From: Desulfofundulus salinus | GTDB lineage: Bacteria > Bacillota > Desulfotomaculia > Desulfotomaculales > Desulfovirgulaceae | Reading direction: 5' to 3' | NCBI RefSeq assembly: GCF_003627965.1 | Contig: NZ_RBWE01000001.1 | Coordinates: forward strand, 2,192,511-2,256,510 | Length of the DNA: 64,000 nucleotides | Shown here: one piece after another, positions 13,507 through 41,863 of the stretch | How the letters are laid out: every line of letters begins with the position of its first letter | Position numbering within the stretch: the stretch's first letter is position 1 | Notes under the pieces: model-generated | The model's input: only the letters and a program-made list of their open reading frames with translations | Database searches by the model: none | Told to the model about the DNA's origin: nothing | Program-made: the position numbers and the translations under genes

Positions 13507-13582
13507 TGGAGGCGACACCCGGATTCGAACCGGGGAATAGCGGTTTTGCAGACCGCCGCCTTAGCCACTTGGCTATGTCGCC
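13507..13582 (-). tRNA. tRNA-Cys(GCA)
   Basis: 76 bases including encoded CCA. Acceptor GGCGACA pairs with TGTCGCC, discriminator U, anticodon loop contains GCA, T loop TTCGAAT. Last gene of the four-tRNA operon. Confidence 0.97.
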
Positions 13583-13590
13583 ATAAAAAA

Positions 13591-13665
13591 TGGAGCGGAA
13601 GACGGGATTCGAACCCGCGACCCTCGCCTTGGCAAGGCGATGCTCTACCACTGAGCCACTTCCGC
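13591..13665 (-). tRNA. tRNA-Gly(GCC)
   Basis: 75 bases with encoded CCA; acceptor GCGGAAG/CTTCCGC, discriminator U, anticodon GCC, normal T loop. Confidence 0.97.
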
Positions 13666-13711
13666 ACGTTTGACGAGTATATTATATATTACTTTTGCCG
13701 GTTTGTCCAGG

Positions 13712-13787
<76 letters not shown>

Positions 13788-13796
13788 ACATTAGAT

Positions 13797-13873
13797 TGGC
13801 GGAGCTGACGGGAGTCGAACCCGCGATCTCCGGCGTGACAGGCCGGCATGTTAGACCACTACACCACAGCTCC
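13797..13873 (-). tRNA. tRNA-Asp(GTC)
   Basis: 77 bases with encoded CCA; acceptor GGAGCTG/CAGCTCC with discriminator G (the Asp identity base), anticodon GTC. First gene of the operon. Confidence 0.97.
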
Positions 13874-40207: not shown

Positions 40208-41275
40208 TTACTTTAATATTTTATCTTCATCCAGATCGGCGATGCCCGCCTCGCTGAAACTGGCCATCTCGTTAATCACCCGGCAGGCCGCCTCCACCAG
40301 GTGCATGGCCAGGGCCGCACCGGTTCCTTCACCCAGGCGCATGTTCAGGTAAAGCATGGGTACCAGTCCTAAATACTCCAGCATCAAACGATGGCCCTGT
40401 TCGCCGGAAAGATGAGAAGCAATCATAAATTCCTTCACCCGGGGCTGCAGGGCAACCGCCACCATGGCCGCCGCAGTGGTAATAAAGCCGTCGATGACCA
40501 CGGGCACCCGCCGGGCGGCTGCCCCCAGAATAACCCCGGCCAGGCCGCCAATCTCCAGCCCACCCACTTTGGCCAGCACGTCCAGAGCGTCTGCTGGATC
40601 GGGCCGGTTCACTTCCAGCGCCATGGCTACCACTTTTATCTTCTGGCGCAGAACCTGGTCGTTGACCAGGGTGCCCCTGCCGGTAACCTCCTCGGGGGTA
40701 TAACCACCCAGCACCGCGGCAATGGCGCTGCTGGGAGTGGTGTTTCCGATGCCCATATCGCCAAGGCCAATCAAAGTGGCTCCCCGGTCGATCTCCCCCT
40801 GGACAACCTCAATACCCACTTCCACCGACCGTACCGCTTCCTCCCGGGTCATGGCCGGGCCGCGGGCAATGTTCCCCGTCCCGGGACGCACTTTCCGGTT
40901 AAGCACACCGGGGTAATCTACCGGCACCGCTACTCCCACGTCCACCACTACCAGGCGGGCGCCGGCCAGCCGCCCCAGCACGCCGATACCGGCCACCCCC
41001 GAAAGGAAAGCCGGAATCTGCTGGTGGGTGATCTCCTGGGGCGCCACACTCACTCCCTCGGCCACCACACCGTGATCCCCGGCCATAATGATAATCACCC
41101 GGTCGCCAACCACGGGGCGGGGGTTGCCGGTAATACCGGCCAGTTGGACGGCCAGCTCCTCCAGCCGGCCCAGGCTGCCAGGTGGCTTGATCAGACTGTC
41201 CAGCCGTTTTTTGGCTTCAGCCATGGGCTCCAGGTATAGCGTTCCCACTTCGGCAATGGTCTTTTCCAGCAGCAA
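40208..41275 (-). CDS. cobT: nicotinate-nucleotide-dimethylbenzimidazole phosphoribosyltransferase
   Basis: 355 residues. Makes alpha-ribazole phosphate for the lower ligand of cobalamin. Typical CobT stretches: RLDSLIKPPGSLGRLEELA, IIMAGDHGVVAEGVS, GLGDMGIGNTTPSSAI, PVVIDGFITTAAA and the catalytic Glu in RLGEGTGAALAM. The TTG at 41275 is preferred because the GGGAGG site lies nine bases before it; an earlier TTG directly touches that site. It is the first gene after a cobalamin riboswitch and terminator. Confidence 0.95.
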   Translation of the reverse strand: MLLEKTIAEVGTLYLEPMAEAKKRLDSLIKPPGSLGRLEELAVQLAGITGNPRPVVGDRVIIIMAGDHGVVAEGVSVAPQEITHQQIPAFLSGVAGIGVLGRLAGARLVVVDVGVAVPVDYPGVLNRKVRPGTGNIARGPAMTREEAVRSVEVGIEVVQGEIDRGATLIGLGDMGIGNTTPSSAIAAVLGGYTPEEVTGRGTLVNDQVLRQKIKVVAMALEVNRPDPADALDVLAKVGGLEIGGLAGVILGAAARRVPVVIDGFITTAAAMVAVALQPRVKEFMIASHLSGEQGHRLMLEYLGLVPMLYLNMRLGEGTGAALAMHLVEAACRVINEMASFSEAGIADLDEDKILK

Positions 41276-41310
41276 AACGATCAACCTCCCACGTGTTAAA
41301 GTTCAGATTA

Positions 41311-41349
41311 AATTAAAAAGTCCACAGCCCGAACAAGGCCGTGGACTTT
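41311..41349 (-). terminator. riboswitch-controlled terminator before cobT
   Basis: Minus strand AAAGTCCACGGCC (41349-41337) pairs with GGCTGTGGACTTT (41329-41317), followed by TTAATTT. Lies between the aptamer and cobT, so it is the likely expression platform. Confidence 0.85.
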
Positions 41350-41371
41350 ACCATCATCCAGCGGTGAAAGA

Positions 41372-41775
41372 ATCAGCAGGCAGGTCTCCTGGCTCCGGTT
41401 CCTCACAACCAACCGCCTTCCCAGCCAGCACTCACCAGTGATATGATTAAACCATGCTGTTACATTTCCATTGCTGAAACAAGTGCCATCGCATGTATCA
41501 GCTCATCAGTGAGTTATCCCCACTTTCCAACCTAGCCGGTTTTGGCCCTCGTTCGCTCCGGTGAGCCTCGCGGGCCAAACTAATACTCGGCTCAAGTCGC
41601 TCGCTACCCAGCCAACCGGCTGAATAACTGGGGATACTTCAGCAGCTCATCAGTGAGTGCCTTGCCAGTGGCTTATACCGTTGGAGGTTGCTCCCCGATC
41701 ACAGTGGCGGGACCGCTCAGGATTTTCACCTGATTCCCTATTCTCCCCCGGTTAAAAACGGGGGCACCTGCTGAT
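41372..41775 (-). ncRNA. cobalamin riboswitch with internal insertion
   Basis: Minus strand: P1 strand ATCAGCAG pairs with CTGCTGAT at the far ends. Conserved core GGTGAAAATCC, then GCGGTCCCGCCACTGTGA and GGGGAGC, GCCACTGG, GGGAAGGCGG, and the B12 box AGCCAGGAGACCTGCC are all present in order. Between GCCACTG and GGGAAGG the peripheral arm is enlarged by a palindromic insert. Controls cobT through the downstream terminator: cobalamin binding should favour termination. Confidence 0.95.
41499..41658. mobile_element. 128-bp palindromic MITE-like insert with 16-bp direct repeats
   Basis: CAGCTCATCAGTGAGT occurs at 41499-41514 and again, identical, at 41643-41658. The 128 bases between begin TATCCCCA (41515-41522) and end TGGGGATA (41629-41636) plus six bases, with further mirrored arms AGCCGGTT/AACCGGCT and TTTGGCCC/GGGCCAAA. 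As RNA it forms one long hairpin, so it could be tolerated in a peripheral riboswitch arm. No ORF. Confidence 0.75.
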
Positions 41776-41863
41776 GTTTAATATTTGCCTGTTGATGTAG
41801 TTGTTAGTTCTACGTGCCCGGATATTTTTCCTGCCATGAATCTGAAATTAAAATTTACCGGTA

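Follow-up and report, generated by a model that had tools for sequence, protein, structure and literature searches.

IS4-family MITEs are short, palindromic and non-coding for transposase, with IS4-like ends, 9-10 bp target duplications and many copies, and element A of this study shares these properties. It departs from IS4-family MITEs in general in that the copy described here lies in a riboswitch arm, where its predicted fold keeps it clear of the rest of the RNA, and in that the corresponding insertion in a sister species holds a further nested repeat. Rickettsia palindromic elements and the repeats in P12 of cyanobacterial RNase P are further relatives, as reportedly are the double-hairpin elements studied in Allomyces, and 16S rRNA inserts, conceivably copies of the repeat B described below, occur in the genus Desulfofundulus. 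Mitochondrial repetitive hairpin and double-hairpin elements lie in intergenic DNA and RNA genes and are retained in the transcript, according to PMC2800124, which also mentions fungal double-hairpin elements. Our second repeat, B, resembles them as a small hairpin repeat in both kinds of place; whereas those elements are organellar, B is bacterial, with a 10-bp end stem, a mostly unstructured interior and a position in riboswitch and ribozyme arms. REP palindromes are landing places for mobile elements (PMC1525189), and the cobT arm likewise appears to be a palindromic repeat that became an insertion target; here, however, the invaded palindrome belongs to a regulatory RNA, and a search of the D. 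salinus genome found no REP-type Y1 transposase. The M. tuberculosis metE leader, an example of the class I cobalamin riboswitch P6 extension, carries a reading frame in its P9-P10 extension, as PMC11260477 describes. The likeness is that extra sequence is accommodated in the peripheral extension; what has been added there, however, is a uORF that is translated, and no mobile repeat is involved. Among the matches listed in a search of the open-access literature, judged by titles and abstract openings, none described a mobile repeat lying in the arm of a riboswitch or within a bacterial RNase P RNA.

The window, that is, the whole stretch of 64,000 nucleotides analysed, contains the cobT leader of D. 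salinus, a thermophilic sulfate reducer; this leader is a cobalamin riboswitch (Rfam RF00174). We consider it highly probable that two layers of repeat are stacked in this leader: element A, an IS4-family MITE, in an arm of the riboswitch, and the arm itself, a copy of repeat B. The features are the following.

40208-41284, minus strand: cobT, downstream of the riboswitch (TIGR03160, 446.5 bits; PF02277, 449.1 bits).
41317-41349, minus strand: intrinsic-terminator-like hairpin (an inverted repeat) followed by a T run read by eye, the likely expression platform; conserved in orthologues.
41372-41787, minus strand: cobalamin riboswitch aptamer with insert (cobT leader).
41379-41393, minus strand: B12 box GCCAGGAGACCTGCC, intact and conserved in orthologues.
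41426-41662, minus strand: B-type arm interrupted by A, one end intact (CAGCACTCA at 41426) and the other degenerate; supported by relatives' arms, the orthologous arm at locus L074 having B ends with one mismatch.
41499-41508, no strand assigned: target-site duplication CAGCTCATCA, copy 1; a single copy in L074.
41509-41642, minus strand: element A, 134-bp palindromic IS4-type MITE with ends GTGAGTTATCCCC and GGGGATACTTCAG on the plus strand.
41643-41652, no strand assigned: target-site duplication CAGCTCATCA, copy 2, from the scan of two-ended A copies.

RF00174 matched the leader in two pieces on the minus strand, 56.7 bits at 41635-41787 and 30.0 bits at 41362-41585, the latter just below the gathering score of 31.5, because the long insert parts the 5′ core from the B12 box. 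Insert-free orthologues in genomes G001 and G005 scored 118.1 and 118.2 bits and covered the whole model. The first-pass annotation had described the aptamer core and B12 box as intact, and this proved correct: the GCCACTG box (41666-41672) and the GGGAAGG box (41416-41422) are present along with the B12 box, and the two halves of the leader each match the family. The insert-bearing arm, between GCCACTG and GGGAAGG, is most likely part of the P6 extension, a label given by analogy with the class I cobalamin switch set out in PMC11260477. By eye, CTGATGAG in the arm has a hammerhead-like look; no such Rfam match was obtained up to E = 1 over 41300-41800, and this candidate was rejected. Elsewhere in the window, four tRNA genes are clustered on the minus strand at 13510-13873.

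Exact 16-bp direct repeats (41499-41514 and 41643-41658) flank the insert, an imperfect palindrome, and the 128 nt between them fold at -62.1 kcal/mol (z -5.55), with none of 200 shuffles equally stable. The first-pass annotation had read a 128-bp mobile palindrome with a 16-bp target duplication. The identical repeats and the strong fold are real, but the element is 134 bp long, and the duplicated target accounts for 10 bp of each repeat; its remaining 6 bp belong to A's own end, GTGAGT, which is identical to the next bases of the riboswitch stem. We placed the boundaries at 41509 and 41642 because other two-ended copies of A show 9-10 bp duplications.

Further copies had been proposed as a check on the mobile reading, and blastn returned 34 matches of A in the D. 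salinus genome including the query, some being two halves of one longer copy. The A ends CTGAAGTATCCCC and CTGAGTTATCCCC occurred at 42 places with at most one mismatch, against 5 for the reversed control. Among the 13 two-ended copies in this genome, a perfect 9-bp duplication flanked five, a 10-bp duplication two (the cobT copy and L008) and a duplication matching at 8 of 9 positions another two, while four had none. Most copies belong to a short form of 134-139 bp or a long form of 250-260 bp; one copy of 109 bp and one of 337 bp stand apart. Read by eye, the short form looks like the long form after deletion between two TTGAGCCGAG repeats. No compensatory changes were found among the 46 pairs of a three-sequence fold of A.

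A PF01609 search of five congeners followed by an end scan identified two IS4-type elements of 1237-1238 bp in G003, each flanked by a perfect 9-bp duplication (AGTGTCAAC and CTGAAATGG); their ends are CTGAGTGATCCCCAGTTTTTAGAAG and GGTGGGGATACCTGAG, and the end pair can also be given as CTGAGTGATCCCC...GGGGATACCTGAG, found at two places in G003. The copy at L403 encodes a 365-aa transposase that matches the NCBIfam IS4 model NF033591 with 226 bits (cut-off 152). At L414 (855-1953) of the same genome lies an IS4-family element copy whose transposase is split across two overlapping frames. The terminal inverted repeats of A (CTGARKTATCCCC) are similar, not identical, to those of the IS (CTGAGTGATCCCC/CTCAGGTATCCCC), and their look is one that we take to be IS10-like. 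Duplication lengths agree as well, at 9-10 bp in nine of the 13 A copies (two of them imperfect) and a perfect 9 bp at both IS copies. Since the G003 element has ends that match those of A, is flanked by 9-bp duplications and encodes an IS4 transposase, we filed A as a non-autonomous IS4-family MITE, a classification made from sequence features. A parent IS within D. salinus itself was rejected: its three PF01609 loci have no pair of A-like ends, only one lone match with three mismatches, and the last mobilisation of A may therefore be old.

The empty form of the site exists in relatives; CobT searches pointed to the genus Desulfofundulus, with 97% identity to D. thermosubterraneus. In G001, presumably D. 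kuznetsovii, the same leader (L074) has one copy of ACTCACTGATGAGCTG and lacks A; the leaders of G005 (L075) and D. thermosubterraneus (L103) are also A-free, with a slightly diverged target. A different arm occupies the site in G004 (L104), and two leaders from elsewhere in the family, outside the genus (L080 and L081), carry an arm that is short and plain. In G003 (L077), A sits at the identical place with the same duplication bar one mismatch; this copy is of the longer form, 347 bp, with a B copy nested within. Because the insertion is common to G003, that in D. salinus was inherited and is not a fresh hit. Cobalamin riboswitch arms do vary widely in length at this place, as would suit a palindrome that is an ancient natural extension of the arm with no mobile insert. 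The empty orthologous site with a single target copy, the dispersed matches and the duplications at other A copies refute that account, and we give it next to no credence. No relative showed the same arm without direct repeats, nor did we find a conserved structure lacking other copies; thus the first-pass observation was real and its interpretation as a MITE-like mobile insert is supported.

In the mechanism that we propose, an IS4-family transposase acting in trans would have put A into the variable arm of the cobT riboswitch, duplicating 10 bp of the target. A would then fold as a self-contained hairpin, unpaired with the aptamer, and the duplication would leave one ACTCAC copy free for pairing with GTGAGT, so that the aptamer core and terminator can stay unchanged. 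When A and one duplication copy were removed in silico, 93 of the 101 pairs of the predicted empty-form fold were found to be kept with A present, and no pairs were predicted between A and the rest of the leader. Alternatively, the insertion may have abolished riboswitch control, leaving cobT constitutive or off and the leader decaying. The split, weak RF00174 match (56.7 plus 30.0 bits) is compatible with such a loss, which would in any case be silent in sequence data. However, the insertion has survived in the genomes of two species, each with an open cobT frame; neither the B12 box nor the core boxes nor the terminator is damaged, and most of the fold predicted for the rest of the leader is preserved. 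Loss of control therefore seems to us unlikely, though a real contender. The terminator hairpin and B12 box sequences are conserved among the orthologues.

What the first-pass annotation overlooked is that A had landed in an arm belonging to another repeat family. Repeat B, CCAGCACTCA...TGAGTGCTGG, is about 92 nt long, with 10-bp inverted ends around about 72 nt of interior that is mostly without a conserved fold. The cobT arm hit by A is bounded by GCACTCAC/GTGAGTGC and, once A and one of the duplication copies are subtracted, is about 93 nt long. Nested in A, both in G003 and in a D. salinus A copy (L014/L159), is a repeat with the ends CCCAGCACTCAC and TGCTGGG. In D. salinus, the CAGCACTCA pattern gave 61 matches against 2 for the reversed pattern, and 22 exact paired copies of 87-95 nt were found. 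The paired pattern CAGCACTCA-N64..88-TGAGTGCTG occurred in 26 of 200 genomes, D. salinus included, and its reversed control in none. Copies of this pattern number 22, 31, 10, 57, 50 and 64 in the six Desulfofundulus genomes, 28 in G009, 23 in G043 and 20 in G067. The arm invaded by A is one copy of this dispersed repeat, and B may be spreading as a mobile unit.

Most B copies lie outside known RNAs, yet three unrelated RNA classes carry B. An Rfam scan of 40 D. salinus sources (all 22 exact-B loci, single-ended loci and four A loci) found 17 of the 22 exact copies outside any Rfam match; of the other five, four lie within cobalamin riboswitches and one within RNase P RNA. At 20 B loci of G001 and G002, selected with known riboswitches left out, there were no Rfam matches; 20 B loci of G043, G067 and G082 yielded one glmS ribozyme containing B (L308 in G067, RF00234 at 596-974, B at 715-820), and a tRNA-Sec at L302 only adjoins B. 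B copies also occur inside other palindromic repeats. Six of the 30 RNase P loci fetched, from five Desulfofundulus genomes and G009, carry B at no more than one mismatch. P12 was read in 24 of these loci: in G002 the form is shrunken, at about 30 nt; a similar hairpin whose ends are altered stands in G014 and G038, and the rest have other arms. P12 arms of GGAAGT/GGAGGTT-type repeats at L204 and L205 (RNase P of G021 and G008) resemble by eye dispersed intergenic repeats at L017 and L295, and RNase P P12 may take several repeat families. L118 holds, at 1407-1547 and 231-318, a lone CAGCACTCA surrounded by a match to Group II intron D1-D4, as well as a match to the DUF3800-VII RNA.

To compare arms with cores, we used loci for 26 of the 49 RF00174 matches in six Desulfofundulus genomes; 25 were parsed, a set that excludes the interrupted cobT riboswitch of D. 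salinus. B arms were present in 17 of the 25 at no more than two mismatches per end, and the unparsed riboswitch, L173, has exact B ends. L066 of D. salinus and L172 of G001 are 98% alike in their cores and 65% in their arms (shuffled baseline 57%), while L185 and L176 are 82% alike in their cores and 96% in their arms. This mismatch shows that arms have been exchanged between riboswitches and that they evolve independently of the aptamer cores. Either gene conversion between paralogues or fresh insertion would account for the exchange. A tandem pair of cobalamin riboswitches about 170 bp apart in D. salinus (contig C1, 1170895-1171087 and 1171260-1171539; L064, L066 and L137) has one plain 14-nt arm and one B arm. 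In G009, the riboswitch arms at L164 and L174 consist of no more than a short hairpin whose ends resemble those of B (36 nt; CCCCGCACTCA...TGAGTGCGGGG).

An alternative to transposition of B is that its arms spread by gene conversion or because paralogous riboswitches were duplicated. Near-identical arms on cores that are 82% alike fit conversion equally well, and the B subfamilies follow host type, riboswitches hosting two clusters, RNase P one and palindromes the others (hosts assigned by eye), a pattern that favours spread with hosts or conversion as much as free transposition. Against this stand the same B ends in three unrelated RNA classes and unrelated palindromes, as well as the A copy at L159, which holds B where G001 has A's own 148-nt apex. 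We rate spread by conversion or duplication as a serious candidate, at somewhat less than an even chance.

Sites other than RNAs were compared for 20 D. salinus B copies against four congeners, giving 80 comparisons. The same B was present in 18, a different B was scored in three, the host palindrome lacked B in two and another filling was found in two; the remainder comprised 42 without recognised flanks, which may also mean diverged flanks, five with the right flank only, one with the left flank only and seven without an anchor. Among the three scored as a different B, the L114 site is a true case in G005 but in G003 carries the same B next to an altered left flank; L134 in G001 was scored automatically. 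Read by eye, host and B are both absent from the L162 site in G001, G003 and G005. The two hosts free of B read GGATGCGG-TGCTA-TCC and GAGGA-CAGCG-CCGC, and those bearing it read CC-B-GG; in C-type hosts, B lies in a stem arm and not at the loop. No constant target-site duplication of the kind left by derivatives of TIR transposons was seen in these few cases, two hosts differing by a 5-nt replacement and one by a 148-nt replacement. A third palindromic repeat, GGATGCGG...CCGCATCC, occurs with and without B inside at L116, L121, L125, L142, L156 and L161.

The conservation of B ends and length over families of the order, with diverging interiors, could point to a functional RNA or protein-binding hairpin conserved by selection in leaders. 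We grouped 123 distinct copies into clusters and folded up to 12 members of each of the eight largest against 40 dinucleotide shuffles. In seven of the eight clusters the interiors were no more stable than shuffles (mean z -1.11 to 0.66), the RNase P cluster being the exception (z -2.62/-2.83), and B as a folded RNA was rejected. It was also rejected as a known RNA family, since every Rfam match above the gathering threshold at a B locus belongs to the host RNA or to a neighbour, and none to B. Together with the interiors, the 17 exact copies in no Rfam match and the varying presence of B among congeners make a selected hairpin improbable. A Y1 (REP-type) transposase as the mover of B, as in a REP/RAYT system, was likewise rejected: PF01797 matches occur in eight of the 12 genomes searched, both with and without B, and number zero in the B-bearing D. 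salinus, G009 and G067.

We tentatively raise the possibility, which we hold to be a minority prospect, that B represents a mobile cap for hairpins of a class not described before, docking on RNA helices in riboswitches, RNase P and glmS and replacing stem-loop apices. If so, peripheral arms of non-coding RNAs would be swapped as modules between RNAs and species. The cobT leader offers a natural series, from the short plain arm of related genera through a B arm and B with the MITE to B with the MITE and a nested B in the sister species, which makes the extent to which a peripheral RNA arm can change directly testable and suggests that dispersed repeats supply and exchange peripheral arms in bacteria. 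At L290 and L375, a second B end, CAGCACTCACCCAGCACTCACC, lies inside one end of B, as if B had landed in B.
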